A stretch of DNA of 64,000 bases. Source: Caenorhabditis elegans. Its lineage: Eukaryota > Nematoda > Chromadorea > Rhabditida > Rhabditidae. The translations under genes were made by a program, and so were the position numbers. Location of the stretch: positions 11,098,001 through 11,162,000 of the forward strand of contig NC_003279.8 in assembly GCF_000002985.6 (NCBI RefSeq), in the 5' to 3' direction. The first letter of the stretch is position 1. Each line of letters begins with the position of its first letter. The notes under the pieces were generated by a model. It had not been told where the DNA came from. It saw nothing but the letters and a program-made list of their open reading frames with translations, and did no database searches. Below are positions 14,643 through 60,831 of this stretch, piece by piece.

Positions 14643-17600
14643 CTGCTTAACCCTCAAAACTCCAACAGACGACTGCTTTGAGTCCTTATCAGTGGTCACA
14701 TAGAAATAATCAGATTCTTCGGATAATTGATAAGTGAACACATTATCCTTCGCCTCCTCGTCCGCATCAAAAGCTGAGAAGCTCATTACAGCTGCTCCGA
14801 TTGGAGCAGTTTCTTCCACGGAGCCTTCGTAGCGGGTCTGGAAGAAATTTACATAAAGAGTGCGGGGCTACAAGCTTTTTGAGCTAGGCTACAAACTACA
14901 AAGTTGATAGATGCATAGACTACAAACTACAAAGTTAGTAGATGTCTAGACTACAAACTACAAAATTTTTGTTTAAATTTTGTGCCGGATTGTAGTTAGT
15001 TTTAGTGGCTGCCAATACTTACTTTACTTTGATACTTTGATGTCCGAGACACTACAAGCCAGGGGTGGCAAACGATTTTTTTCCGGCAAATTGGCAAATT
15101 ACCGGAACCGAAATTTCCGGCAAATTGACAGACTGGCAAATTGCCGATTTGCCGAATTTGCCGGAAAAACGGCACTTGCCATTTTTGTCAAATTGTGGTT
15201 TTGCACATTTTTTTCTGAAAATATCCGGCAAACACCAAATCGGCAATTTGCAGAAAATGAAAATTTCCGGCAAATCGGCAATTTGCTACAAATGAAAATT
15301 TCCGGCAAGTCGGCAAACCGACAATTTGCCGAAAATGAAATTTTCGAGCAAATGAGCAATTTGCCAGAATTAAAAATTTCCGGCAAATCGGCAATTTGCC
15401 GAAATTGAAAATTTCCGGCATTTTACCGATTTACCGATTTTTCGAAAACTTCAAACCAGGTAACTTGGCGATTTGCCGTTTTGCCGGAAATTTCAAACCC
15501 GGTAGTTTGCCCATTTGCCGAGCTGCCGGAAATTTCAAACCCGTCAATTTGTTGATTTGCCGATTTGCCGGAAATTTGAAAGCCGGTAGTTTGCCCATTT
15601 GCCGAGCTGCCGGAAATTTCAAACCCGGCAATTTGTTGATTTGTCGATTTGCCGGAAATTTTTAATTCCGGCAATTTACCAATTTGCCAGCTCTGGTTCT
15701 GGCCTTACTACAAACTACACCTTCCCTTCTAGCCTCACCAAATCATACTCACTTTCTCAAAGAATGGTGCATTATCATTCATATCCGTAACCTTAATTGT
15801 CACATTTGCAAAACCCTCCCGCGATGGGACACCTCTATCATTTGCCCGAACTTCGATGATGAACTCCCTCTCGGAACTGATCTCCCGATCCAGGGAACGC
15901 TGAAAATTTATCTAGTATCAACAAAAAATGTAAGTTTTTCCTACCATTGCGAAGATCTTTCCGGTGTTCTGATCGATTCGGAATACCGACTCTCCATTAA
16001 TCAGCTTATTCCTCACAATTCCATATTCGATATTCGCGTTTTCTGTCGTCGGATCGTCAAAGTCTCGGGCCTGCACGTCCATGAAGTAGACACCGTCGGA
16101 ATCTGAATTATTATAGGTCTAAGGAGGCTTGAAGTGAAAAGAGGTCTTACGAATTGGCTCCCGATTCTCCTCAATATATCCGAAAAGTCGTTCAGGGAAT
16201 ATCGGGGAGTTGTCATTGATATCTCGGACATTCACCTGGAAGAAAGTAGTACGATCTATGCGGCTTTCTCGGAAATTCAAACAATTAATGCAATATTTCG
16301 ATAGTTTTCACAATGCCTTAAACGCGACCTAGATCTAGGCCAAAAAGTAGGTATTCCAGGCCGGCTTAGCTGGCACAAAAAATTTGATGAACTTACCTAA
16401 AGTAATGAATACCACGTGTGTTATATCCAAAATGTAAATTTCTGAATTGCCGAAAAAATAAATCCCTTCACGTTTTTACAAGTTCCCAAGAAGTTTTACG
16501 CGGTAATATTTCTATTCATTGCTATAGTTTTTCTATAGTTTTTACAATCAAATGTCTTAAATCATAGTGACTATTTACTAGGGTAAGATAGTTGGTACAT
16601 TGCGAACAATACTATGTGCCAAATTTCGTAGCCGTCCCCCAGTTTATGACCCAAATCTCGTTTTTTTTGTGGTTTCCTTACCTGCACATCTGCATATCCC
16701 ACCAATCCATTCCCATCATCATCAATCGCCTGAACCACAAAATTCCATGACGGAACTCCTGCCGGAGGATCTCTATCCAACGCCTTGACCAACTCAATTG
16801 TCCCCGAATACTTTCCAATTCGAAACACTTCATCAGCTCCCTGCCCTTCAAGCCTGTACACTATCCTACTGCTCTTCTCATCCTGATCAGCATCCGTCGC
16901 GTGAACATTGAACAGAACCTTCGGAATATCCACGTCCTCCTCGATGACTGTAGTCGCGTACTTTTGCTGCTCGAACTGTGGAGCATTGTCATTAACATCC
17001 TCGATGTGAATGTAGACATTGGTGGTAGCGTTGTGGCGTCCATCAGAGGCGATAAGGACTAGGTGGTATTGATCGGAAGCTTCAAAGTCTAAGGGTTCCT
17101 TGACGAATATGGTACCGGAATCTGTTCGGACGCCGAAGGGGATCCGTCCACCACCGGCTCCGATGAGGTGATAGCGGAGGTTGGAATCTGGAATTATAAC
17201 TGTATGAGTCTTTTATCATCTAGTTGACTACAAACTACAAAGCCTTGTACTACTTACGTTTATCCAAATCATGTGCCTTGATAGTGATAACATCATGACC
17301 CTCTCCCTCCGATTCCTTAACCCTTCCGATATACTTTTGCTCCTCAAACGATGGAGCATTGTCATTAACATCATTGATAACTATTTGCACCTTCACATTG
17401 TCTGAAAATATTATAATTTGTAGTCAGAAGCCTAACTTCCAGTCAAACCCTTATTCGGCCCATTTGCTCCTGGCAGTGCTGAGACGGAACGATCACTGGC
17501 CTCCACCGTCAAAATGTACATGTCGATCTTTTCGCGGTCAAACTTTTCATTGGGGAATATTTCGCCGGTGAGCTCGTCGATTCGAAAATGTTTCGTTTCT

Positions 17601-20600
17601 TCGCCATTCGCTTCGCCTACAATTCGGTAGTGTACTTCGTTTTGTGGACCATCGGAGTCTGTGTCGATTGCTTTCACAGTGACGATGGGTTTTCCGTTTG
17701 TTCTGGAATTTCAGGAAACGTTGAGGATGTGACTATCATTACTATTATGGGGCTTTCAAGTAGTGTCAGAAAATTAAAAAGTGTAGAAAAATAACGTCAC
17801 AACTGTATTAAAATACATTTTAAAAAACATGTATGAGTTGTGACGTCATAAATGTATTTAAATACATGTTGCCACACTACTTGAATAGCCCCATAAGAAT
17901 ACACCATAGTTTGTATCTTATGTAGTCTTTGTGGTCTGTGACGTCACACTAAACTTCACTAAAAAATTGTGGGCGGGGTCCGCACCCCCCCCCCCCCTTC
18001 GTGGTGAGACCCTTCGAAAATATTTAGGCGTGGAATTTAAATTTTTTCAGAAAATCTTTTGCCGGGATAATAAAATTTTCTGAGGAAAATTTTGTGCCGG
18101 GAAATTCGAATTTCCTGAGAAAAATTTTTTGAGAAAATTTTTCAGCGTAAAATTCAAATTTTTAAAGAAACTTTTTTGGGGGGAATTCAAACTTTCTGAG
18201 AAAAAAACATTGGAGGGAAATTTGAATTTTTGCTGAACCATTTTGGCAGGAAATTCAAATTTCCTGATAGTGAGAAATTTTTTGACGGTAAATTCAAATT
18301 TTTTAAGAAATGTATGGAGGGAAATTAAAATTTTCAGTGAGAATATATTGGCGGGATATTCAAATTTTCTGACTTTTGGCTTATAACTACATTAAAGGTG
18401 AAGTAGCGTCAGTGGGGAAATTGCTTTAAAACATGCCTATGGTACCACAATGACCAAACATCATTGTAAAAAAATTCAAAAAAAATTTCTAAATTTTATA
18501 TGGTTTTTTGAAAATTGAAAAAATCTCAGTTTTTGCCTAATTCCTATTTGAATTACCGCCAATTGGATTTGTTCGATGGAGCGCGCTTGCACGTTTTTAA
18601 ATTTATTTATTTTATTTATTGTTATTTTCCACCGATTTTTAATGTTTTCGGTGTATTTTTGCTTGAATATTAGAGAAAAAGTCAAAATAAATGCAAATTT
18701 TCGATCAAAAAGCACGCTTACAGGCGTAAATCAGTGAAATTAATTAATTCAGGTTCGAAATCGTTTAAAAGCGTTACTTTTTCATTTTTGCGCCTGTCAG
18801 CGTGTTTTTAATCGAAAATTTGCATTTATTTTGACTTTTTCTCTAAAATTCAAGCAAAAATACACCGAAAACATTAAACATCGGTGGAAAATAACAATAA
18901 ATAAAATAAATAAATTTAAAAACGTGCAAGCGCGCTCCATCGAACAAATCCAATTGGCGGTAATTCAAATAGGAATTAGGCAAAAGCTGAGATTTTTTCA
19001 ATTTTCAAAAAATCATATAAAATTTAGAAATTTTTTCTGAATTTTTTTTTATCATGATACGTGTTTTAAAGCAATTTCCCCACTGACGCTACTCCACCTT
19101 TAAAATCCGAAACCCACTTCTCCAAATGCTCATTCGGCGTCATTTCCTCATCAATTGTCCCTGTGAACAGGTCGACCGTGAATTGAGGCACCACATCGTT
19201 CACATCCCGAACCTCTACCACAAATGTCTTCGTAGAAGCCACCCGGGATGTCATGTCCTGAAAATCAAACACACACACATTTTTTTCCTGGATCGTAGGC
19301 ACCCCTACCGTAGCCGTGAGTGTCAGGGTGTAATTGTTGACTTGCTCATAATCCAGACCCTCCATAATCACCACTTCGACCCACTCATTCCCATTTTCAA
19401 ATTTATTAAATTGCCGGAACTTGGACTCTGCCTTATTCCCAGGACCCCCAGAAGCTGTCAACTTGTAGATGACATCACTATTCCTGGAGTCTCCAGAAGA
19501 AACCGCGCGGCATCTCAAGATCACTTTATTCAACTCCACGTTCTCGTCTACAGTAATCCCTGGCTTGCAGTCCGGGGATGTCTGCCATTTTGGCGCCTTT
19601 TGTTGTTTGTCTAGCACATTCAATGTGACTTGAGCACTGGACTGTAAGGCTTCTGGGATGCCATTATCATCGGCTATCACGTTAAATATAAACTTTTGAG
19701 TCTTCATAGGAATCGGCTTGATCAATGTGATCTCCCCGGATCTTCTGTTCACCAACTCGAAAAAGTCCAGATCATTCTGATGTTCTTCTCCAGCAGTTGT
19801 ATCGATTTCCAGGGAATATGTGATTTCAGCATTGTGAGCTGCGTCGTTATCAAATGCAAATACAGTGATCACAGATGTCCCTACAGCTTCAAATCTGGAC
19901 ACTGATGTTTCATAGGAAGGTCGTTCGAATTGTGGGGAGTTATCATTGATGTCGACGACTTCCACAGAGAACTGACAGAAGCCAATAAGTGGGCGGTCAC
20001 CACGATCAGTTGCCTGGAAAATTGGAAATCATTGATTTCAACATTAAACTATCAACAAAAAAAAGTGAGAATCGAGAATACAAGTTTGACTAACATTTAT
20101 TGATTTGGTAAGCAAGTTTTAAACAGAATTTTGAGCGCAATTTTTCTTCCACTGTTGTTTTGTAGTCTATTCAATATACTGAGACTACAAACTAGACTAC
20201 AAAATACAAACTACAAAACATGGCTCACGTCACAAAACCATATGCATTCTTATTTCATATTAATTAAGTTTGAATGCTATTTGTTATGATAAATCTCAAA
20301 ACTACAGACTGAAAGTTTCAACTACCAACTATAAACTATAAACTACAAACTACAAACTACAAACTAAAAACTAAAAACTACAAACTACAAACTAAAGCCT
20401 ACACACTACACTCTGCACACAATTACAAACTTCAATTTGCAAAGTCAGAAGTTTTGATAAATTTCGAGATAGCGATTTAAAAAAAGAAACTTTTATTGCT
20501 TGCACGTTGTTGCAAACAAACTACAAACTACAAACTACAAGCTACAAGTTAAAGCCTACACGCTACACTCTGCACACTACAAACTAGAATTCCAACAGTT

Positions 20601-23600: not shown

Positions 23601-26600
23601 GAGATCAAAATTAAAGAAAACGATCGAAAATTGAGAGAGTAAGAGGGTTTTTGAAAATTTGATTTTTTTGGCACTTTTTCACACCCATCTAATTCGGTTA
23701 GCTATTGCGTTTTTTTGCAGATTTTTAAGAAAACTATAGTAAAATCTTGAAAACTTGATAAAATTACACGTACTAGTTATGAATTAAAAGAAAATCTGCA
23801 TTAAAAAATCAGATCAAATTATTTTTTGGAAAAATTTCAAACCGCTCTAGTTTTGTCAATTTATAGTTTTTTTTTTAATTTTCGAAACTTAAATATTTGA
23901 AAATGTTTGAAAATTGTATGTTTTATGCTATAAAATGCTATAAAAAATTATACAAAAATTTTAGAAAAAAAAATCGTTAAGAATCAAAAACAATTTTTTT
24001 TTTGAAATTTCAAATCCCTCTAATTCTGTTATTCTTCTAGATTTTTACATAATTTTTTCGATAAAACAGTCAAAAAAAAATTCAAATTTGAATAAAATGT
24101 TACCAAGTAAATTTCGTTTTTTTTTATTCATGTTAGTTTTAAATCGCTCTAATTTTGCTAGTCTCCCAGATTTTTGAATAATTTTTTTTGTAAAAAAAAT
24201 GTGGAGATTCTTTTAAAATAATGCTTGATTGATTCAAATAAAACCTAATCAAATTATAAAATAATTTCAATTTTTAAAAATTGCAGTGTTGGAAAAAAAC
24301 ATTTTTTTTCGGAAAAAAAATTTAAATTCTAAAATTTTCAAATTACTGTAACTTTCTTTGTACTCACTATTTTCAGTCATTTTTGACTCAAAATAAAGGA
24401 AATTAAGTTTTCTTGAAAATGTATACAATATTTCTAAAAAACCAACCTATAGTCCACCAAATTATCCTCTGAAACCGTGACTTCATACTCTTGTTTCGCA
24501 AATTGCGGCGGCCGTTCATCAGCTAAAATCTCCAAAATCGCAACTTCAGAAAGCTGTGAGGTAGTATTATCAGATGGCGATAAATCCATAGCTTGAGCTG
24601 ATATACGGTAGGTATCACCACGTTCATATTTACTCCATCCAGTACGTACAACACCAGATTTCGGGTCAACTATGAAGGATCCGGCGGCTGGAAAATTGAT
24701 TGATTTTTATGAAAAATTGTGATAATGTTAAAATTTGAAAAATTCTGGACATTTTGTATTAAAAAATAAAGGAATATCTTGAAAATTGAGAAAGTTATAA
24801 GAGTTTGAAAATTTTGAGAAAAAATTTTCAAAAAAAAAATTAATAATTTTTTTCCCAATTTTTTAAATTTCAAAAAAAAACATACGTATAACATCAATAG
24901 TTTTATAAAGAACATTTGAATCTCCATCTCCATGTTCATCTCTAGCCACAAATTGATAGACTATACGTCCAATTGTCGGGTTCAATGGGACCACTGCGAG
25001 CATCGGGAGCGGCGAATTCACGAAGCTCGGGGGCTCATCAATGTCTGCCACGTGGATTCTGATGGTTTGGGTGCGGGCTGAAAAATATTTGAAATCAATT
25101 TTTATACAGAAACTTTCATTTTTTTCAATTTTTTTTTTCGAAAAAAAAATCGAAAAAAATCTTGAAAAATTTTTTTTTTTCAAAAATTTAAGGTTATTTT
25201 TTTCTGATTTTTTGCTGATTTTTTGATATATTGTGTATAGCTGTCATGTATATATATATATATATATAATATTATCAACATCATAAATCCGTTCCATATC
25301 CTCCCTCCCATCTTTCCTTATCAATGGGAAAAAACCAGCCTGATAAACTTGATATTTGGGGTACAAAACTAGACATTTTCGCCGTCCCTAGCGATTTTAG
25401 TCATCTTTTTTGCATGTTTCTGAATGTTTTTTCATTTTTATAATATTTTTGTTGTAAAGTCTTATCAATATAAAAGGAAAAAAAATTTTAAAAAAATTTT
25501 CTTTTGAAATTTTTTTTTGGAAAATTTCTAAATTTCAAAATTCCATACTTCACCTACTTTAAATAATTTTTCTTGGAATTTCAATGTACTAATAAATTAA
25601 ATTTATCCAAAAAATTTGTGCAAAACTATAATAAAACACAATTTTAAAAAATCCAAAAATTAAAAAAACAATTTTTCGAAATTTTCCTCAAAAACCGCAA
25701 ATTTTTCTCTTAAAATTACCCTTAACTCATAAAATTTTCAGATCTCTTTCCCGTCAAGCCATGCGTTATTATTTCCTTATTCTCCTAATCATATCAACCA
25801 TCCTTATCACTTTAACCGTAACCGCGCCAGACAGAAAATCCAAAAACTCGGAAAAATCCGACGACGAAGAATTATCAAATCTTCAAATTCAAGTCAATGC
25901 TCCAGATGGAAAGGGTTTTGTGCATTCAGCGGTAAACTAGACTACAAACTACAAATCTGGTTAGACTACAAACTACAATTTTCCAGCTGCCAATTGAAGC
26001 CCGAGCTCACGGAGCCCGTTTGCACGGTGGACAATCGAAACCAAGTATTGGAGATGATGTACTAATTCCATTTGATGATCCAAATTTTGAATAGAAAATG
26101 CATAATAAATTGACTACAAACTACATTTTTGGCTTTTATGCTGTGAAAATGCCCAGAAAATCGATTTGTAGAAGTCTATGTATCTTTAAAATTGTTTACA
26201 ATAACTTATTGGAAAAAAGAAAATTCAGCTGTGAGGGTTCGAACCCCGGTGTTGTGCGCGGTAAGTGTTGTGCAAAAACCCACTAGGCCACGCGGACAAT
26301 TTTTCGAAAAATTCCAGAATATGGATTTCCAGATGTCTAAATGATTTTGAACTGTAGTTTACAGTAAATTCAGTTGTTAAAAAAATAATTCCGGGTAGGT
26401 GGACTCGAACCCCGGTGTTATGTGTGGAAGGTGTAGTGCCGAAACCCACTAGGCCATCCAACATTTTTTTAGGAACGTTCGAGAAAATGGATTTCCAGAT
26501 GTCTATGTGAATTTAAAATTGCTTTCGTAACTAATTACAGCAAGAGAAAGAATATGTATCGCATGGGGGTTCGAACCCCGGTGTTGTGCTCGGTAGTTTT

Positions 26601-29600
26601 TGCGAAAACCCACTAGGCCACGCGGACATTTATATGAAAAACTTTAGAAAAACTTGACTTTTATCGTTTTATACTCCTTTTTTGCTTTTCTTAAGGTGTT
26701 TTAACAAAAATTTAGGAGGTATTTCCAATTAAAATCATGCTTTTTCAGTAAAAAGCAAAGCCCCCGCCGTTCAATATCATCCATTTTAATCCCAATATTT
26801 GTTTGTATTACCATATGCTTTCACTTATGAATATGCGCGCGCACGCAGACATATGCTCTATTGTTTTGTGTGTTAATCCAATTGACGAGATAGTATGGGC
26901 AAGCGGGGAGACGCAGAGTGAGATAGCTGCACAGTGGGAGTACTGGTACTGAACAGATTGCAAAAGTTCTTTATCATTACAAAAAGTATCCCGAACTACG
27001 AACCATAAACGAAAACTGCGAAAATATCTAATAAAAAATACATTTGGCGAGTTTTCCGAAAAATGTCCGAGTGGCTCAGTTGGATTTCGGACAAAACCCC
27101 CTTTGCGCTCACAACACCGGGGTTCGAGACCACCGAAGTGCAAATAGTTTTTTTATTTTTTGAGGTTATCATCTAACCTATTTAAAATGTGTTCTAGTCT
27201 TTAAATTTGTGGTTTTTTCCCACTTTTTTTTTGAAAACCACCCTCTCTTGAGCCTCTCCCTAAAAGGTGGTGACACCCAATTTACCAAAAGTAGCTCCAA
27301 TTCCGGCTCACTCACTTGTCATTTAGAAACGAGGAGCAGATGGTTTTTAAGGCGAGTGGTTGAGGGGCTAAGGATTGATGATGGTGCAACTGACACCTAA
27401 TTTGGGATTTCGAGAGAGAGAGTAATCCCTCTTACGCTTCACTTGGTTGAGGCTAAACAAACAGCTGTAGTTTGTAGGGAATTTTGAAAAAAAAACAACA
27501 CTGTAGTTTGTAGTCCCTGAGCCTCAACCAACCCGATTTCCGCGCAATAAAGCCCGGAGATGAAGATGAATCGGGGGCTTATGTCATGGAAAACAAGCGG
27601 TCGGCGGGAAAAAAGGAGCCGATGGCTCCGTTTTGTCGCCTTTTTGCATAATGTATTTGAAGTAATAAGCACAATTATGGTGGAAAGTGGTCCGGAAAAT
27701 CACAAAAACAATGGTTGAGGCTCAGGGACTACAAACTACAAATGGGCTGAGCCTCAACCAGGTTTTGGAATTTTTCAGAACCGATACAAATTTTTTTTTT
27801 AATTTGTCTTGAATTTGCATATGTTTTCTTAAATATTAAATCGACACCATATTTGGCTCAGCTGGGATGGATCGAGGATTTCGAGGATTGCGAACTACAA
27901 ACTACAAACTACAAACTATAAACTACAAACTATAAACTACAAACTACAAAAAAACCTCTAATTTCGGAGTGAATATGAAGCATCAATTAAAAAAATATTT
28001 TGTGTAAAAATCCCAGACTACAAACTACAAACTACAAACTAAAAACTAAAAACTACAAACTACAGTTTTTCTGCAAACTTTAATTTCAGAAACTTTTTTT
28101 TTGTTGAAAAAACCTAAATTGTTGAATTTTTTGAAAATCTAAATTTAAACTTTCAAATAATTTTGGAAGAAACAAAATTTAAAATATTATCCAAAAAAAA
28201 AAGAAAAAATTACAATTTCAATTACCCGCCAAAAAATTTAAAACTCAATATTTAATCTTCCCTGCAATTTTTTTTTCGAAATAAAAATTTCAATTTTTTT
28301 TGTCTCAAACTTCAAGAGTACTTGGTTGAGGCTCAGTGACTATAAACTACAAAAGTGACCCCTTGAAATTGTCCTTTTTGGTCCCCTTACTTGCACAAGT
28401 ATCAATTAAAAATCGTGAGGGTTCATCTTGGAGTATGCCCCCCCATCCAGTCCCTTTCAACGTAATTGTATTAGGATCTTGTCCTGTGTTGGTCTCTGGA
28501 GACCCCACCGAGTGACCCTTTAACTGACTGACATCCGGAAAATGTTGACGACGGATGGTGGGTGCTTCAAGATGCAATTTGATTAGCCAACAACCATCAT
28601 CATCTCAAAACTCCAAATTCCAAATCAAAATTGCATCGCAGACAGACGTATGTTGGCCTTGAAACTAGTCAGTATAGTTAGTTACAAAAATTTAAAAAAA
28701 ATTGGTGGCACTGGGGTTCGAACCCTGGAGCTGTGGGTGGTAGCTTTTGCAAAAAACCCACTAGGCCACCGGGACAATTTCTTGAAAAATTCCAGAAAAC
28801 GGATTTCCAGAAGTCTATGCTCCTTGAAACTAGTCAGTATAGTTACCAATAATAAATAAAAAGAATTGGTGGCACGGGGGTTCGAACCCCGGAGCTGAGG
28901 TTGGAAGCTTTTGCAAAAAACCCACTAGGCTACCGGCGCACTTTTTTTTTGAAAATTTTTTGAAAACTCAAAATTTTAAATTTTAAATTTTATTCCCTCC
29001 TATTTTTGTCCACAAAATTAACTTTTTGGAAACTAGGTCACACTACAAACTACAAAACCTACAAAATTTAAGCCAAATTTACTTCTAACCTTCAAGTTTT
29101 CCGCATCCCCCGCTTTTCCTAAATTTTTGGTTGAGGCTGTCCTCCTACAAACTACAAATTCCTAAATTTCCCTTTTCCAAAAGAAGTAATGATGATTGAT
29201 GACACGTGGCACCCCGCCCCGACCCTCCGCAACGGACACCTAATTTAGATCAATGAGGTCCGAGCAGGTGGCCCTAACGTGATTGACGGGGAGACTACAA
29301 ACTACAATGTTTGCACAGCCTCAACCAAGTGTTGATTAATATGCACAATTTTTGAATACTGGGATTTGATTGGAATTTTTTTTGATTTCAAAAAAAATTT
29401 TTTTTTTGAATTTTTAAAAGAAAATTTCCAAAATTTTTAGAGGTCTATATGCTTGTGAACTATTAGTATAGCATTTAACAACAAAAAAAAATTCGTGGCA
29501 TGGGGGCTCGAATCCCGGAGCTGTAAGTGGTAACTTTTACCAAAACCCACTAGGCCACGCGGGCACTTCTTTGAAAAATTCGGGAAACTTGTTTTCAGGC

Positions 29601-32600
29601 TTTTATCTAATATTATATGAGCAGTATAGAATTTAACAACAAAATAAAAGAAAGTTCAGGGCAGTGGGGCTCGAACCCCGGAGCTGTAAGCGCACCGCTC
29701 CTGCAAAAACCCACTAGGCCACCGGTGCATTTTTTGATATTTTTAATGTAAATTCGAAATTTTCAGTTTTTCTTGACATTTCTTGTAATATTTTCAAAAA
29801 CTCACTACTCTGCAATCCATTAATAGGCACAGTTGCGATGATGGAACTAGTTTTTTCGTAGTTTAATGGCTTCAAAAGGTGAATTTTCCCGTCATCGTCG
29901 ATTTTTAGCCATTCCTTGGCAACATTGATCTCTCCAATTGTTTCACCAGCAAACAAAGGAATTTTCTGACAAAAAAACTTAAGTTGGTTGAGGCTCACAG
30001 GCTACAAACTACACATATTTTCAAGCTTGGAGCAAAATTCGAAAAATTAAAATTTTTAATGGTCCATAAAAACTTGGTTGAGATCTAAACTAAAAGCTAC
30101 AGATTACAGGCTACAGACTACGGGCTACAAACTACAAATTACAAGTTTTTTGCTTTTGAAAAATCCCTAGGCTTTGAGCAATACCAAACTAATGGCAGTG
30201 CTTGAAAAATGAGTTGAGGCACTTACTACAAAAATCAGCAAAAACTATAAAATACTAACTACAAACTACAAACTACATAAACTACAAATTACAAACTATA
30301 AACAAAAATGCGTTAAAATTTCAAATTAGGGGATTTGAGATACACCAACTACTTTTTCAGCAATTGTTCTAATATTTGGTTGAGGCACACAGACCACAAA
30401 CTACAAAAGCTACAAACTACACATACCATATCCTTCTTCTCAATGTCCTCCATAGTCGTATTCTCCGGAATTCGAAATACAATATCATCCAGATGCCGCC
30501 GCGAACGTGATGATGTCATCGGCTCCAGCTTCTGCTCTTTTTTCACCGAAATCTCGAGCCAAGCATCGGATCTTTGTTTTTTCTGGTTTCGGGCGACCAC
30601 GTGGATATGGTAGGTACCGTAACCTACTGGGAGTACGGTAGAAACTCGGCCAGAGAATTGATCAATTTTGAAAAATCGGGATGGCTCTTCAAGGTGAAAG
30701 AGGAGGGGCTCCGAGAGGTTTCTGCAAAAAAGAGATGTTGTAGTTTGTAGTGTAGACTGCAGACTACACGTTTTGAGTGAGGCTATAAAATTGTGTAGTT
30801 TGTAGTTTGTAGCCTACCTTTTTTCCACGTCAAACACCGTTGAATTGGCCGGAATTGCAGATGCGAACTTTGCGATCGATTTTTTGGATTTCAGCAGAAA
30901 ATGCACATCTCCAGAGTCGATAACGTCAATGATCACTTTGGTTTGGGCAATCTGAAATTATAAAAATCGATATTTTTTAAGTTTTAACACTACAAACTAC
31001 AAAAAAGTTTAGCCTCAGGTAAAGTTCGAGGCCAAACATTTGGTTGAGGCTAAACTAAAATTGTAGTTTGTAGTGTAAGGTTTGTTTGTAGTCGACAAAG
31101 TGTTGAACTACAAACTACAAACTACAAATTATAACCTACAAACTACAAACATCCTACTTGTAAGCCATATCCCCTTCCCATTTCACCTGGCTCCTCAATG
31201 CAAATTTTCGGTTTGTAGTTGTAGTTTTTATTTTGTAGTTTATAGCTTAATGTTTGCAGTTTGTAGTCCACAAATTTTCAAGTATTTAAATACTACAAAC
31301 TACATTATTTTCGACACTTGCCATTTCCCCTGTCTTCTCTGTAAATGCTCCGAGAAAAATAACGTGGCGCGTGATGTCATCCTCCTCAAGCTTCTGCTTC
31401 ATCATCACAATATCGACTGATTTTCCACGTGTCATCACGGAAAACGGACTGCTGTATTTACTGATTTTATCGATTTTCGAAATTGGAGAAATCACGAAAT
31501 TTTTCCGATTCCTAACTGTAATCGGCTTCGAGAAAACTACAGTACTCCCGGGCTGCTGTGACGTGTATACGGTAGCATGGTATACGGTAGATAGAAAAGT
31601 TGCCGGCTGCTGGGATGTACCACGTGGATCTACATAGACGTGGAGAGTTACCAGGCGTTGGAAATTTTGCTCTTTTACGTTCAAAAATAGTTCGAAGAGC
31701 TCTCCGTGGAATTGGGTTACGGTAGTGTTGGTGATTATCTGAAATTTTTATAGTTTAGTGAGGCTAGGAGACTACAAACTACAAATATCCCGTCAAAAAA
31801 CTGCCTCGAAAAATTTGAATTTCCACCTAAAACTTTTTTCAGAAAATTTGAATTTCCCGCCAAAATGTATTTTTCAGAAAATTTGAATTTCTCGCCAAAA
31901 AGTGTGTTTTTTTGAATAAAATTTGAATTTCCCGTCAAAACAATTTCCAAAAATTTAAATTTGAATTTCCCGCCAAAAAGTATTTTCTCAGAAATTTAGA
32001 ATTTCCCTCCAAATTTTCTGAAAAATCAAATTTTGAATTTCGCGCCAGAATTGTTTTCTCAGAAAATTTGAATTTCGCGCCAAAATTTCCGCAAGACTTT
32101 TCTGCAATAAAATTACGAAATTTTAAAATTTTGAATTTCGCGCCAGGCTCATGGACACTACAAACTACACAAATACCTTACCCTGTACCCATCCTCCACT
32201 TCAAAATTTGTGCTAAAAATCGATGGCTGCAACGTGGCGATTTCCGAGTCGCCGATGAGATTTTGAAATTGAAGATCACTGATTAGCCATCCGGGCGGCG
32301 CATTTGACGGCAGTTTCAGCAGGGTTTTTGCCTGATAATTAAAAAATGAATTAGAGTAGACTACAAACTACAACACTCTGTGAGCCTCACTCAAGCTGAA
32401 AACTGGTCCAAAACGCTCCGTTTTTTCAAAATTTTTTTCTGAAAAAATTCCCCATTTCCGAATTCACTGCTCATTTCGCTAAATTTCATGAAAATTCGAA
32501 TGCGTACCCAGGGAGTGCGAGTCATAATTCATGTCATTTGATATATTTGTTCGAGTTTTGGTGAATGAATTTATGGGCTCCGGCAGGGGGATGCATGTTG

Positions 32601-34383: not shown

Positions 34384-36559
34384 CTCTCTACTCTAAAAAC
34401 ATTAACAACTAAATAAATATACACAATGGAATGTGTTACATTATGCCCCCCATATCCATTTGGGGCTACCCCCCTCCCTATCCGCCAATAAATGAAAAAC
34501 AAGAAGCAGGGAAAGGCAGATGGTATTAACACAGGAGGATAGGCTCTGTCTCGTGTCCAGATGTGCGAAAAGCTGAGTAATCCCGGCGTGTAAATCATCT
34601 CTCTGTGTTGGGTGAGGCTACAAACAACAGGATATGGCACAGAGTTATGGTGCACCCTAAACAGTTTTTTTTTTTTGGTTTTTAGGTGAAAACTTTGAGT
34701 TAGATGTGTTCGATATTGCTAGAAATTGATAAAATTCAGAATTTTTAAATTTTGGTGAGGCTCACTGACTACAAACTACAAAATACAAACTACAAACTAG
34801 CACTGTTTTTACTGGGGTTATTATCTAAAGGTTTTTCTCCAGATTTTGCAATTTTTCATAATTGTTTTTTTAGAATTTTGGGACCAAATTTGAAGCTATC
34901 ACTATATTTTGGGAAAAATTGGGTGAGACCGACAGACTACAAACTACAAACTTCAAACTACAAACTAAGGCTTAACACAGTTTTACTGGAGTTATTAACT
35001 AAAGGTTTTTCTCCAGATTTAGCAATTTTTCAAAATTGTTTTTTTAGAATTTCGGGACCAAATTTGAAGCTATCATTAAATTTTGGGAAAAAAATTGGGC
35101 GTGGCCGACAGACTACAAACTACAAACTACACAAATATTGCCCCTCTAACATGTGTGTGTGTGTTTTCCAGATTTTCAGATTTTTACTCGGACCAATTTT
35201 TTTCGGAATTTCGGAAGCTTCAATTTAAAATAAGGTTTTGGGTAAGACTGCCAGACTACAAACTACATACTACAAACTACAAACTACAAAATCCCCAGAA
35301 CCTCTCAACCAAGTAAAAAACTCCTACACAACTTGAAAAATGTTTCAAAAAAATTTGAAATTCATGGGAATTTTTTCGCATTTCTTACATTTCTTACATC
35401 TTCCGTGCCAGTTTTTGACAATTTGTCATTCATTTTTCAAATTTTTGACAGGGACGCCAGTACACTACAAACTACAAAGTCCCCTTGAGCCTCACCAAAA
35501 AAAAATTACATTCTCATTTACATGCCGGACATCTGCCGTCATTCCCAGCGGCACTTTTTTGCGCATTTGACCTATTAGCTGGTCTCCGTCCCTCCACTGG
35601 ACATATCATATCGAAAGTGGCGTAAATTGTACGCTTTTTTTCCGGATAGATGAGACCGATGGATGCGATAATCGGAAATGGGAAAGGCGAAACGGGCAAT
35701 GTTGCGTGAAGCTATTCGAAAAGAAAAAAGACTAGAAACTACACAAATTCCTAAGCCTCACCCAAGCTGTCAGACTACAAACTAAAATTCTTCCACTACA
35801 AACTAGAAAATGTTCAGCCTCAACTGAATATCGGTAGTTGATTGATTTACTCGGAGACTTGAAACGTCAAGAATTGAATTTTGAGGGGGCAGATAGCTCA
35901 GTCGGTAGTGGTGGCCGCTAGCAGTCTGGAGGTCACGAGTTCAAGTCCGGCCTCACCCACTAGGTTCACCCAGCCTCTATTGGGAAGTGGAGCAATCCAC
36001 GACTGGATTATCGGCCACAGTCCCCGGCTAGGACGTGGCTTAAATTACAGCCCAGAGGGATCACCACCAGGCAGTGTACCTGAATCCCAGATCCGCAGTG
36101 CATAGCACTTGAAGAACGGATCGTCCTTTAATCCTTTTTAAAAATACAATCTTTAGACTACAAACTACAATTCTTATACTACAAACTACAATCTAAAAAC
36201 TACAAACTACAATTTAAAAACTACAAACTGCAATATTAAGACTAAAAAATACAACATTTAAATTACAAATGCAAAACATTACTTCAAACTACAGTAGCTG
36301 CCAAATTTCATATTCTATAGGGGAAGCTGAGAAGATATGAAATTTAAGACTACAAACTACAATGTACACTACAAACTACAGTGTAGTCTGTAGCGTAATA
36401 GTTGTAGTTTGTAGTCGAAAGATTATAGCCTTGAATAGCCCAAATTTTGAAGTGAATTTTCAGATTTTTTTTTTCAAAATTTTCAAAAAAAATTGGAATA
36501 CTTACCAAAACTTCGTCCAAATTCGAAATGAGTAATATTAATAAAATGTTCCAACTCAT
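14643..36559 (-). CDS. Large cadherin-repeat cell-adhesion protein (3' end outside the visible exons)
   Basis: This gene encodes a secreted or type I membrane cadherin, which would mediate calcium-dependent cell contact. Exons, 5' to 3': 36559-36506, 35711-35522, 33436-33369 (tentative), 32331-32182, 31738-31304, 30951-30818, 30721-30427, 29965-29806, 25077-24886, 24687-24447, 23571-23225, 22323-22001, 21458-21173, 21123-20873, 20013-19309, 19257-19118, 17702-17437, 17401-17258, 17187-16682, 16235-16151, 16102-15945, 15899-15753, 14837-14643. I checked reading phase at every junction and it is consistent, giving about 1,824 codons. The start is a signal peptide (MSWNILLILLISNLDEVL). Repeat linkers with cadherin calcium motifs include DDVNDNVPTF, EDVNNNKPEF, VDINDNSPQF, RDVNDVVPQF, NDVNDNAPSF, EDVNDNAPQF, RDINDNSPIF and TDMNDNAPFF, implying about a dozen repeats. 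The N-terminal ~450 residues are divergent. The last exon stops inside a repeat at a GTATGT donor, and no transmembrane or cytoplasmic part is securely seen. Family membership is certain; the orthologue is not assigned. Confidence 0.93.
15065..15700. repeat. CCGGCAAAT satellite block 10 in a cadherin intron
   Basis: About 15 units. In the second half a 110-bp higher-order unit (GTAGTTTGCCCATTTGCCGA) is repeated. Ends 53 bp before cadherin exon 15753. Confidence 0.9.
17746..17895. repeat. 150-bp inverted repeat in a cadherin intron
   Basis: Ends ATGGGGCTTTCAAGTAGTGT and ACACTACTTGAATAGCCCCA are inverted copies. TGACGTCATAAATG lies inside. Probably a small non-autonomous element related to the one at 4363. 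Confidence 0.75.
18010..18370. repeat. GGCGGGAAATTCAAATTT minisatellite
   Basis: Inverse orientation of the array at 31795, adjoining the palindrome at 18392. Its left end carries TCGTGGTGAGACCC, as does the array at 51475. Confidence 0.8.
18392..19103. repeat. 710-bp palindrome ending 15 bp from a cadherin exon
   Basis: Left end TTAAAGGTGAAGTAGCGTCA, right end its complement (TGACGCTACTCCACCTTTAA). Arms stay matched to a centre near 18750. The right end lies within 15 bp of exon 19118-19257. A relative is at 54031. Confidence 0.88.
20329..20600. repeat. CTACAAA tracts
   Basis: Two tracts, 20329-20405 and 20515-20600, separated by AT-rich sequence; variant units include CTAAAAA and CTATAAA. 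Confidence 0.85.
21495..21975. repeat. CCGGCAAAT satellite block 11 in a cadherin intron
   Basis: About 12 units of TTGCCGATTTGCCGAAAATT; the block stops some 25 bp from the donor of exon 22001-22323. Confidence 0.9.
22589..23160. repeat. Dense CTACAAA tracts next to cadherin exon 23225-23571
   Basis: Tracts at 22589-22640, 22733-22822, 22896-22945 and 23055-23160. The last has over a dozen perfect heptamers and ends about 65 bp from the exon. Confidence 0.88.
25761..26094 (+). CDS. Small secreted protein, 92 aa, nested in a cadherin intron
   Basis: Two exons, 25761-25931 and 25987-26094, are separated by a 55-nt intron (GTAAAC...TTTTCCAG) that itself holds CTACAAA repeats. The protein starts MRYYFLILLIISTILITLTV, a clear signal peptide, followed by a charged stretch (KSKNSEKSDDEE) and a Gly/His segment, ending DDPNFE. 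It has no cysteines after the signal and no domain I recognise. A TTTTCAG at 25735-25741 just before the ATG could be a trans-splice acceptor, and AATAAA lies a few bases after the stop. It is on the opposite strand to the host gene, inside the 4.7-kb intron between cadherin exons at 29806 and 25077. It could be a peptide precursor, but there are no dibasic-bounded repeats to show it. Confidence 0.72.
26228..26297 (-). repeat. tRNA-like module copy 1
   Basis: Reading leftward it starts GTCCGCG, has an A box (TGGCCTAGTGG) and, about 35 nt on, a B box inside CCGGGGTTCGAACCC. It looks like a tRNA-derived pol III unit. First of three copies about 165 bp apart in the large cadherin intron. Confidence 0.65.
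26396..26462 (-). repeat. tRNA-like module copy 2
   Basis: Same A box (TGGCCTAGTGG); the B box is GGGGTTCGAGTCC, matching the consensus. Separated from copy 1 by a spacer containing ATGGATTTCCAGATGTCTA, which recurs between copies. Confidence 0.65.
26560..26627 (-). repeat. tRNA-like module copy 3
   Basis: Starts GTCCGCGTGGCCTAGTGGG and carries a perfect B box within CCGGGGTTCGAACCCCC. Spacing of 165 bp to copy 2 equals that between copies 1 and 2, so the unit repeated is module plus spacer. Confidence 0.65.
27064..27135 (+). repeat. tRNA-like module, plus strand (Ser/Leu-type resemblance)
   Basis: Starts GTCCGAGTGGCTCAGTTGG, which fits an A box, and has the B box GGGGTTCGAGACC. It differs from the other copies in orientation and in its A box, so it may be an older tRNA-like relic. 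No acceptor stem of full length forms. Confidence 0.5.
27893..28066. repeat. CTACAAA tracts
   Basis: Tracts at 27893-27955 and 28014-28066 in the large cadherin intron. Confidence 0.85.
28703..28775 (-). repeat. tRNA-like module copy 4
   Basis: A box TGGCCTAGTGG and B box AGGGTTCGAACCC. The ends GGTGGC and GCCACC are complementary, so the unit can close into a stem. Paired with the next copy at a 166-bp spacing. Confidence 0.65.
28868..28941 (-). repeat. tRNA-like module copy 5
   Basis: A box TAGCCTAGTGG, B box GGGGTTCGAACCC. Ends with GCCACC like the previous copy. The spacer (CCAGAAGTCTATGCTCCTTG) matches the spacer between other copies. Confidence 0.65.
29494..29566 (-). repeat. tRNA-like module copy 6
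   Basis: Starts GTGCCCGCGTGGCCTAGTGG; B box GGGATTCGAGCCC. Ends CGTGGC and GCCACG are perfectly complementary. Paired with the next copy 163 bp away. Confidence 0.6.
29657..29729 (-). repeat. tRNA-like module copy 7
   Basis: A box TGGCCTAGTGG and B box GGGGTTCGAGCCC, ending 77 bp before the next cadherin exon (29806-29965). Confidence 0.6.
31795..32150. repeat. GAATTTCCCGCCAAAA minisatellite
   Basis: About nine units of AGAAAATTTGAATTTCCCGCC spaced near 40 bp in a cadherin intron. Related arrays, some inverted, lie at 18010-18370, 47930-48200 and 51475-51600. Confidence 0.82.
32840..32935. repeat. TTTGTAG tract, inverted orientation
   Basis: About a dozen GTAGTTTGTAGTTTGTAG units, opposite to most tracts in the domain. 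Confidence 0.88.
33369..33436 (-). other. Tentative small cadherin exon
   Basis: The exon at 35711-35522 ends in phase 1, while the exon at 32331-32182 must start in phase 0, so something is missing between them. This 68-bp segment lies between a TTGCCACAG acceptor and a GTTGAG donor, is open in the needed frame, and restores phase exactly. It is richer in GC than the surrounding DNA. The donor is part of a GGTTGAGGCTC repeat, which weakens the call. Another unseen exon could do the same job. Confidence 0.35.
35883..36130 (+). mobile_element. tRNA-related SINE
   Basis: Head region has an A box (TAGCTCAGTCGG) and a B box (GAGTTCAAGTCCGG) about 40 nt apart, as in a tRNA-derived promoter. A roughly 180-bp unrelated body follows, including GGCTAGGACGTGGCTTAAAT, and the element ends at a T/A-rich tail. 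It lies in the first cadherin intron, antisense to that gene. Confidence 0.65.
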
Positions 36560-58769: not shown

Positions 58770-60831
58770 TTAGCTTCTAGCCTTCTTTCCACAAGCGTAT
58801 CCTCTAACAGTCCTCGCCACATTCGACCCGGCCGGAACCTGGCATTGCACATCATCCAGCCGATTTGCCTGCCACGTCCATTTATCCACTACCGTTGGAG
58901 TATGAGCAGCTAGGAGTACAGCACATTGTTGAGTGGCAGCATGTGCATTATCTGGTTGATTGTTGTTCCAGAGAAGCCCATCAGTGCCGGTCGTTGAGCC
59001 ATCTGTCCAGTGGAAGGAGTTCATGGAATTGCATGAGGAAGAGATTGGAGATTTGGAGCAAGCGGGGGTTCTGTGGAGGCCAATGTAGATGGAGCCACTT
59101 TGTTGGGAGATTTGAGGAAGGAGCAGGCCTGGAAAGTTTTGGGAACCTTTAAGGATGGTCTACATCAGTGAGAAGATACTGGGAAAAATGAAAAAATTTG
59201 AAGGTTTTTGGAAATTTCAAAGCCCCTAGAATATTGAATTTCAAATTTTTAGTCTCGCACATTTTTTTAAAATTTTTTGTCCATTTTGAGTTCAACTCTC
59301 TCTCTCCCACACGGTCAATTTTTTAAACGAATTTTTTTTCAAAAAAATGGAAACTCGTCGTTCGGCAATTTTTTTTCTTCTGACAAATTCGGCAATATGG
59401 TAAATTGCCGGTTTGCCGTTTTCCGGTAGATTTTCAATTTGGGCAATTTGCCGATTTGCCGGAAATTTTCAATTTCGGTATTCTGCCAATTTTCCGGAAA
59501 TTTCGAATTCCGGCAAATTGCCGATTTGCCGGAAGTTTTTACAGGGATTTTTTATAAGATGGAAACACTTAAAACAGTGCATTTTTTCAAATTTTCTTCC
59601 CGGTTTCAAAAAAAAGTGCAAAACCACAACTTGCCGAAATTTGTCGGCAATTGCCGTTTTTCCGGCAAATTCGGCAAATCGCCAATTTGCTGGTTTGCCG
59701 GAAATTTTCAATTCCGGCAATTTGCCGATTTGCCAGAATTTTTCAATTCCGGCAATTTTCAGATTTGTCGTAAATGTTCAATTCCTGCAATTTGCCGATT
59801 TGCCAGAAATTTTCAATTCTTGCAATTTTCCGATATCCCGGAACTTTTCTATTCCGGTATTTTGCCGGTTTGTCGATTTGCCGGAAATTTTCAATTCCGG
59901 CAATTTTCAGATTTGTCGTAAATGTTCAATTCCTGCAATTTGCCGATTTGCCAGAAATTTTCAATTCTTGCAATTTTCCGATATCCCGGAACTTTTCTAT
60001 TCCGGTATTTTGCCGGTTTGTCGATTTGCCGGAAATTTTCAATTCCGGCAATTTTCAGATTTGTCGTAAATGTTCAATTCCTGCAATTTGCCGATTTGCC
60101 AGAAATTTTCAATTCTTGCAATTTTCCGATATCCCGGAACTTTTCTATTCCGGTATTTTGCCGGTTTGTCGATTTGCCGGAAATTTTCAAAAATTTTTAA
60201 TTACAGCATGTGACTGATTCCCCCCCCCCCCCCCCGATCCCCCACTCACTTGCAATTTTCTTCGCCTCCTCCTGATTCTGCACTCCGGTCAGGACAGCTC
60301 CTTGTGATTGGCAGCGAGATTCGGCGAGTGGTTGGTGATAAGTTCCTGGGAATACTCGAACACACCAGCCACCGGAAGGACGGTTGAATCGGGTCCAGCC
60401 AGCGTCACAGCCCCGCTGTAAGGAAGACGTTGAAGCTTGAGCCTCTTGGTTCAGAAACGCACTTACATTATTACCACCTCCGTTATTGCCGCCTTCATGA
60501 CCACCACCATGCTTATGCTCATGACTCTCTGAAACCATATATCAACATAGTTATATATATATAATTTGATCTACATATACTGCGGGAGATATTATTTTCC
60601 TAGAAATTTTTTGACTTCACTGCAGTGCATTGGTGGCTCAGTGGTAGAATGCTCGCCTGCCACGCGGGCAGCCCGGGTCCAATTCCCGGTCGATGCACCA
60701 TGTGGAGGCCGTACGGTAGGCCTGCCTGCACACCTACCTTCACAAGACTCACTGCTACTTGAATCGAAATCAATGGCCACAAGGGTTCCGATCAGAAGTG
60801 AAAAGCATAGCAAAAACGATAGCGAAGACAT
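58770..60831 (-). CDS. Secreted C-type lectin 8 (226 aa) with a His-rich linker
   Basis: Minus-strand exons 60831-60738, 60528-60467, 60415-60250 and 59128-58770. Signal peptide MSSLSFLLCFSLLIGTLVA, DFDSSSSESCE, a His/Gly/Asn linker (HEHKHGGGHEGGNNGGGNN), then the domain: GCDAGWTRFNRPSGGWC, AVLTGVQN, GSIYIGLHR, NSFHWTDGS, LLWNNNQPDN, QQCAVLLAA, LDDVQC, GYACGKKARS. All conserved cysteines are present. Intron 1 (60529-60737) contains an antisense tRNA-Gly-like sequence; intron 3 (59129-60249) contains a long satellite block. TATA box at 60869 reading leftward, 38 bp from the ATG. Confidence 0.9.
59380..60195. repeat. CCGGCAAAT satellite block 13 with a 148-bp higher-order repeat
   Basis: Ordinary units to about 59740, then three nearly identical 148-bp copies, each starting near TGTTCAATTCCTGCAATTTG. 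Entirely within intron 3 of lectin 8. Confidence 0.9.
60627..60697 (+). tRNA. tRNA-Gly (GCC)-like gene or pseudogene with encoded CCA
   Basis: A 71-nt cloverleaf: acceptor GCATTGG pairs with TCGATGC, D arm GTGGCTCAGTGGTAGA, anticodon stem CTCGC/GCGGG with loop CTGCCAC (anticodon GCC), discriminator A. It is followed directly by CCA (60698-60700), which eukaryotic tRNA genes normally do not encode. The B box reads GGTCCAATTCC rather than GGTTCGANNCC, and no T4 terminator follows for over 150 bp. These points favour a retroposed or decaying copy. It lies in intron 1 of lectin 8, on the opposite strand. Confidence 0.65.

Follow-up and report, generated by a model that had tools for sequence, protein, structure and literature searches.

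The window analysed here, a 64,000-nucleotide stretch of C. elegans chromosome I (11.098–11.162 Mb), contains a cadherin gene on its minus strand, and one intron of this gene hosts an array of tRNA-like modules at I:11.124–11.128 Mb. The host intron is 4.7 kb in size and spans positions 25078..29802 of the window on the minus strand, with a GTGAGT donor near 29802 and an acceptor, TTTTTCAG, ending near 25078. These limits were judged by eye from splice-like sites and a continuing frame, and cadherin-like ORFs lie farther out on both sides, which upholds the cadherin intron that the initial annotation had named as host. hmr-1 is a cadherin gene on chromosome I and would be a candidate for the host gene. 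A short nested gene was also read by eye, from the sequence and its ORFs, in the same intron on the plus strand (25759..26110), with two exons and a signal-peptide-like start.

Seven minus-strand modules carrying both an A box and a B box are arranged as one triplet and two pairs, just as annotated initially. Pair 1 consists of module 1 (29642..29729; A box 29721, B box 29677) and module 2 (29480..29565; A box 29557, B box 29514), pair 2 of module 3 (28853..28940; A box 28932, B box 28888) and module 4 (28689..28776; A box 28768, B box 28724), and the triplet of module 5 (26543..26628; A box 26620, B box 26577), module 6 (26378..26460; A box 26456, B box 26411) and module 7 (26212..26298; A box 26290, B box 26245), where A boxes are given by their upper coordinates and the extents come from model R1, itself built from the modules that it delimits. 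The A box TGGCCTAGTGGG was exact in six of the seven modules, the copy at 28932 starting with TAGCC, and the B box was present in all seven, with GGTTCGAACCC exact in four and one or two changes in the remaining three. Within groups, the A-to-A steps were 164, 164, 164, and 166 bp. The A-to-B distance was 43–45 bp in every minus-strand module, which is the spacing of class I tRNA genes. When at most two mismatches were allowed per box, seven A and B box pairs were found in the window vs. none in 60 dinucleotide shuffles of it, confirming the tRNA-like pol III boxes.

Further, an eighth and more diverged module, overlooked by the initial annotation, lies on the opposite, plus strand (27064..27156) and includes an exact ACACCGGGGTTCGA. 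It was detected with the triplet as a DNA query (window 27049–27127, 78% identity, E 4.7e-8), and its 62.1 bits against model R1 are by construction, as module 8 was in the model.

A locus-private spacer follows each of the seven minus-strand modules, for example at 28779..28851, and the others are located at 29568–29639, 29419–29481, 28615–28687, 26467–26540, 26301–26371, and 26140–26208, all on the minus strand. A profile of the seven spacers recovered those seven, by construction, with the next match in the window at E 0.15, and it found no orphan copy of the spacer lying apart from a module there; module plus spacer is retained as the local tandem unit. The shared spacer claimed earlier stood in that the whole spacer is recognisable in all seven copies, but the word quoted from it was exact in just two. 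Because the seven minus-strand copies have the same private spacer at a fixed step, DNA duplication is indicated. A spacer common to all clusters was rejected, as 36 spacers from other loci gave no match above shuffles. A spacer motif searched with at most three mismatches gave 21 matches vs. 2 for the control; three of them, including the best, belong to the cadherin-intron locus, and none of the other 18, with two or three mismatches, lies within 10 kb of the family copies among the matches listed.

Genome searches placed the modules in a wider family. One extended A box had 221 genome matches vs. 3 for the control, and family copies among the matches listed were on all five autosomes, plus one on X. 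With three patterns, 32 of 34, 45 of 46, and 9 of 9 of the matches listed fell in the arms I-right, II-left, III-left, IV-left, and V-right, which make up ~21% of the genome. Among 100 listed of the 221 matches, head-to-tail steps of 143–168 bp were common elsewhere and steps of 285–318 bp recurred as well, so a tandem arrangement peculiar to this locus, as had been supposed, is not supported. In the same 100, neighbours 400–5000 bp apart elsewhere were on mixed strands (19/45 on the same one); together with module 8 on the other strand, this indicates that the seven modules share the sense-strand orientation as a consequence of their duplication in tandem. The extended A box TGGCCTAGTGGGTTT has six copies genome-wide, all six in the cadherin-intron locus, and the local A box reads CCTAG vs. 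G/TCAG in the copies listed elsewhere, a variant that could differ in binding. The array modules are a locus-private subfamily of the genome-wide repeat.

Conservation among the seven minus-strand copies (21 pairs) was then compared with the same segments shuffled. The mean pairwise identity was 0.98 for the A box (shuffled 0.34) and 0.90 for the B box (0.29), while it was 0.69 between the boxes (0.56), 0.58 in the 12 nt before (0.26), 0.63 in the 24 nt after (0.56), and 0.68 in the spacer (0.61); the baselines differ since short segments were compared ungapped and long ones gapped. No box-less module copy was found in the locus. As these copies are related, gene conversion could account for part of the box conservation. 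Across clusters, the module was more alike than the spacer in 10 of 10 cluster means and in 17 of 20 adjacent pairs, with the provision that the final flank of a cluster of two copies may fall outside the duplication. The support from conservation across clusters is thus weaker than within the cadherin-intron array.

Neither ARAGORN nor Rfam called a tRNA at the array, and no other Rfam family matched there, a result that concerns described RNA families. The tRNA models that had been suggested for the copies therefore recognised no tRNA, and functional tRNA genes were rejected because the modules are unrecognised by structure-aware tRNA models. Although the A and B boxes 43–45 bp apart are like those of class I eukaryotic tRNA genes, the modules differ from such genes in this lack of calls.

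A class of sites with comparable properties has been described in C. elegans. Stutzman et al. (2020; PMC6950938) report 1029 TFIIIC sites and 504 extra-TFIIIC sites; of the latter, which are over-represented in introns and clustered in arms, 90% have a Box-A and 87% a Box-B, with TFIIIC sites lacking Pol III found in the arms I-right, II-left, III-left, IV-left, and V-right; 214 of the 225 repeat-overlapping sites are CeRep3, "putative tRNA pseudogenes". Like these, the array is tRNA-pseudogene-like, clustered in cis, intronic, and located towards the right arm of chromosome I, with both boxes in 7/7 minus-strand modules (the eighth being included by similarity), no tRNA or Rfam match that would indicate a described non-coding RNA gene there, and related copies among the matches listed concentrated in the same five arms. 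The CeRep3 name would apply to the modules because of box content and distribution rather than a consensus match. Unlike the known sites, the array has a locus-private A-box variant, and TFIIIC binding to it is putative; the word 'tandem' is absent from the main text of PMC6950938, which does not describe the head-to-tail step under that word. Most yeast and human extra-TFIIIC sites have a B box only (PMC6950938), and in carrying both boxes the array modules differ from most of the yeast sites. They resemble yeast extra-TFIIIC sites or TFIIIC insulators in that clusters of TFIIIC sites are proposed to bound chromatin domains, a role that is putative in the worm (PMC6950938).

Based on these comparisons, the array is probably an extra-TFIIIC (CeRep3-like) cluster of decayed tRNA-like repeats which, if it acts, does so as a DNA platform for TFIIIC, and the observation is mostly explained by a repeat class already reported in C. 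elegans. A module with its flanking spacer would have been duplicated head to tail within the cadherin intron and the copies would then have diverged, losing the tRNA fold but keeping both boxes as far apart as in a tRNA gene. Direct results of this analysis are the anatomy of the array, its growth by tandem duplication, its family and genome-wide distribution, and the concentration of conservation in the boxes. TFIIIC binding without Pol III is published for the extra-TFIIIC class and, by analogy, may be carried over to the locus: the working part would likely be the DNA, with TFIIIC landing on each module and Pol III being recruited little or not at all.

It is also possible, though somewhat less likely than not, that the modules, while belonging to the same family, are inert remains of tRNA pseudogenes, duplicated in tandem by unequal exchange and drifting without a role, any TFIIIC binding being incidental. 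This alternative shares the family assignment with the platform explanation and differs on role only, so that the confidences in the two overlap. It agrees with the modules being unrecognised as tRNAs, with parts outside the boxes that diverge about as much as the spacer, and with the three adjacent pairs, out of 20 in the 10 clusters, whose spacers are as alike as their modules or more so, and local tandem duplication needs no function. However, boxes that are 0.90–0.98 identical vs. 0.58–0.69 elsewhere, and the failure to find a box-less copy in the locus, argue against mere drift.

That each module is an active small pol III gene, giving a 70–90-nt RNA that ends at the downstream T run, appears improbable. 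In its favour, the boxes are near-consensus and at tRNA spacing, and a run of at least four T starts 11–17 nt after the B box in 6/7 minus-strand modules, module 5 being the sole one without such a run in the 50 nt past the B box. Compared with 33% in matched 21-nt windows of the host intron (a looser background, 55% of 40-mers, was judged too loose), this is an excess, with a P of 0.007 that is naive because the related copies are not independent; the excess fits a transcribed ancestor. However, near-intact boxes do not imply transcription, and with fold z-scores of -0.06 to -2.28 over the eight modules, RNA structure is not clearly kept.

A terminal stem also lends the active-gene alternative no support. 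The ends CGTGGC/GCCACG, annotated initially as closing into a stem in the later copies, were exact in one unit (29557), whereas unit 28768 has GGTGGC/GCCACC and unit 28932 a version with one mismatch. Of the triplet units, 26456 and 26290 form no stem longer than four pairs and 26620 has a different 7-pair match. At least five pairs occurred in 5 of the 8 window modules vs. 4.29 expected with permuted partners, and the stem was rejected as a feature of the locus.

As a separate observation on all 43 modules examined, the terminal stem was present in 28 vs. 22.3 expected, a number reached by 8 of 500 permutations; this family-wide excess is weak.

Several insertions of a tRNA-derived SINE by retrotransposition are very improbable: a tRNA-like internal pol III promoter inside a repeat, and a family dispersed over five autosomes and one X site among the matches listed, are as expected of SINEs, but the locus copies arose by duplication of the DNA in place, sharing one private spacer at a constant step, all six genome copies of the extended A box are in the locus, and no common body or tail rose above shuffles in the 36 outside spacers (a short or very diverged tail would escape), in keeping with the initial view that this is not a classical dispersed SINE.

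Under the platform explanation, the cluster may have a part in demarcating chromatin or tethering it to the nuclear periphery near the chromosome I centre/right-arm border, any boundary function of the array being one that we infer. According to PMC6950938, C. elegans has no CTCF, and extra-TFIIIC sites are candidates for its boundary elements. This candidacy is sharpened by array boxes that resist divergence far more than the remainder and by the way in which family elements multiply, head to tail at a nearly constant step. With eight modules in one intron, the locus offers a compact test case, and its private sequence should give little cross-mapping in ChIP after deletion.

A broader generalisation, which we consider doubtful, would have the extra-TFIIIC elements of C. 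elegans evolving as satellite-like local arrays whose preferred step is close to one nucleosome repeat (143–168 bp, and double), the spacer differing per locus and the boxes staying most constant. Of such platforms found on chromosome I, the cadherin array, with its genomically unique extended A box, would then lie closest to the chromosome centre, and it would mark the chromatin border between centre and arm. The stretch immediately left of the window had no match to the family. In a background scan of chromosome I (20 stretches of 10 kb), the 15 stretches left of 11 Mb and four of the right-arm stretches gave none, and the one other right-arm stretch gave a single weak match of 15.6 bits, near 13.16 Mb.

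The window covers C. elegans chromosome I, 11,098,001–11,162,000. A box search of the window recovered, all on the minus strand, the seven tRNA-like modules described in the initial annotation, with A-to-A steps of 164, 164, 164 and 166 bp within the groups (a triplet and two pairs) and A-to-B distances of 43–45 bp in array modules. The box pairing exceeded shuffled controls, as 60 dinucleotide shuffles of the window produced 0 such A+B pairs. Further, an eighth module was found on the plus strand at 27064–27156, between the triplet and the second pair, using the triplet as a DNA query (78% identity, E 4.7e-8). A profile built from all eight modules, which detects those eight by construction, gave no additional match above 8.6 bits over the window; with filters off, the remainder at 25–31 kb scored at most 8.6 bits, and the top one was the known B boxes on the reverse strand.

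ORF and Pfam searches placed cadherin-like minus-strand ORFs on both sides of the array. In detail, the Pfam cadherin matches of the ORFs at 16571–17212 (E 4.9e-24) and 19066–20028 (E 3.4e-15) were above Pfam's own cut-off score, and those at 24434–24706 (E 0.0028) and 30349–30813 (E 0.0012) were under it, while no Pfam match was found for the ORF at 31286–31747 or for those at 29714–30001 and 24863–25243, the exons directly bordering the intron. Read by eye, a GTGAGT donor close to 29802 joins in frame with an TTTTTCAG acceptor close to 25078. Because cadherin-like ORFs lie on both sides and the donor and acceptor join in frame, the array very probably sits inside a 4.7-kb cadherin intron. 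Apparently nested in this intron on the opposite strand is a short gene of two exons whose start resembles a signal peptide (25759–26110, plus strand), also read by eye.

Neither ARAGORN nor Rfam, run with its curated threshold, recognised the modules as tRNAs; both found only a tRNA-Gly at 60627 window-wide. An Rfam scan of 26–30 kb at E up to 5 listed nothing, and the folding-energy z-scores of the eight modules ranged from −0.06 to −2.28. The initial annotation had also proposed a stem closing the module ends, which was exact in one unit and variant in two; at the locus a stem of 5 or more pairs was no commoner than with permuted partners (5 of 8 modules vs. 4.29 expected), and across 43 modules a weak excess was observed (28 vs. 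22.3). The observation of modules was confirmed and its interpretation supported in part; the stem was not supported as a feature of the locus. T runs starting 11–17 nt after the B box followed 6 of the 7 minus-strand modules, vs. 33% in matched windows; this agrees with a pol III gene as ancestor and is uninformative on present transcription of the copies.

Among the seven local copies, identity was 0.98 in the A box (shuffled baseline 0.34), 0.90 in the B box (0.29), 0.69 between the boxes (0.56), 0.58 in the 12 nt before them (0.26), 0.63 in the 24 nt after (0.56) and 0.68 in the spacer (0.61), the baselines differing since short segments were compared ungapped and long ones gapped. This contrast between boxes and the rest is not merely an artefact of the box search, because a spacer profile matched only the seven known spacers, each attached to a module. 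In ten clusters chosen by us, module identity exceeded spacer identity in 10/10 cluster means and 17/20 adjacent pairs, which supports module conservation weakly, since the final flank of two-copy clusters may lie outside the duplication. With conservation centred on the boxes and no fold retained, the modules would on balance be better explained as DNA-level TFIIIC sites than as an RNA gene.

Genome-wide, an extended A-box pattern matched 221 times vs. 3 for its reversed control. The local A-box form TGGCCTAGTGGGTTT occurred six times (control 1); as all six lie in the array locus, the array is, by this A-box form, a locus-private subfamily. Three patterns were listed completely, one for the B box and two for narrower forms of the extended A box (subsets of it); 32/34, 45/46 and 9/9 of their matches fell within five autosome arms, which make up 21% of the genome with the arm limits used here. 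The array locus supplies 4 of the 34, and without it 28/30 remain in the five arms; the matches outside are at II 14.97 Mb, III 11.25 Mb and X 1.53 Mb. The 100 listed matches of the 221-match pattern, spanning chromosome I and part of II, were located at ≥12.0 Mb on I and ≤3.03 Mb on II.

Among these 100, 30 neighbouring pairs were ≤400 bp apart, 27 of them on the same strand, with steps of 143–168 bp in 13 and 285–318 bp in 12; neighbours 400–5000 bp apart were of mixed strands (same in 19/45). The 165-bp period also occurred outside the locus, as five same-strand steps of 163–168 bp on chromosome II among the matches listed, so the objection that no other copies share it does not hold. The spacer profile related the spacers within the array locus to one another, and 0 of 36 spacers from other loci beat shuffles against it. 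A 10-kb stretch of chromosome V (17,745,001–17,755,000) was dense in related modules, with 20 profile matches at 18 separate places and a row of five A boxes in 143-bp steps.

The 504 sites bound by TFIIIC without Pol III (extra-TFIIIC sites) in C. elegans embryos are reported to carry Box-A in 90% and Box-B in 87%, to be over-represented in introns and on the right arm of I, the left arms of II, III and IV and the right arm of V, and to be clustered at a median interval of 1207 bp; 214 of the 225 overlapping repeats overlap CeRep3, termed 'putative tRNA pseudogenes' (Stutzman et al., 2020, PMC6950938). The array, a candidate member, agrees with this class, as described there, in the features compared. 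No description of the family's tandem step was found in literature searches or in the part of PMC6950938 consulted; for the years since 2019, these searches returned one further paper naming both extra-TFIIIC and elegans, its subject being human and mouse, and CeRep3 was named in one paper only within the literature searched. On the features compared, the array is a locus-private addition to a known class. Two results are worth retaining: conservation centres on the boxes, and head-to-tail steps near 143–168 bp recur across the family.

Elsewhere in the window, a plus-strand repeat at 35885–36140 (ends set by eye) has a tRNA-like head with A box TAGCTCAGTCGG and B box GAGTTCAAGTCC, followed by a body of ~180 bp. 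Of 350 genome candidates, the 40 scored were 98–100% identical and present on all six large contigs, and the repeat looks like a young tRNA-derived SINE separate from the array. Between 45 and 61 kb, segments of the type GWRRLNRPSGGWC recur in several ORFs, which look, by eye, like a run of putative C-type-lectin-like genes.
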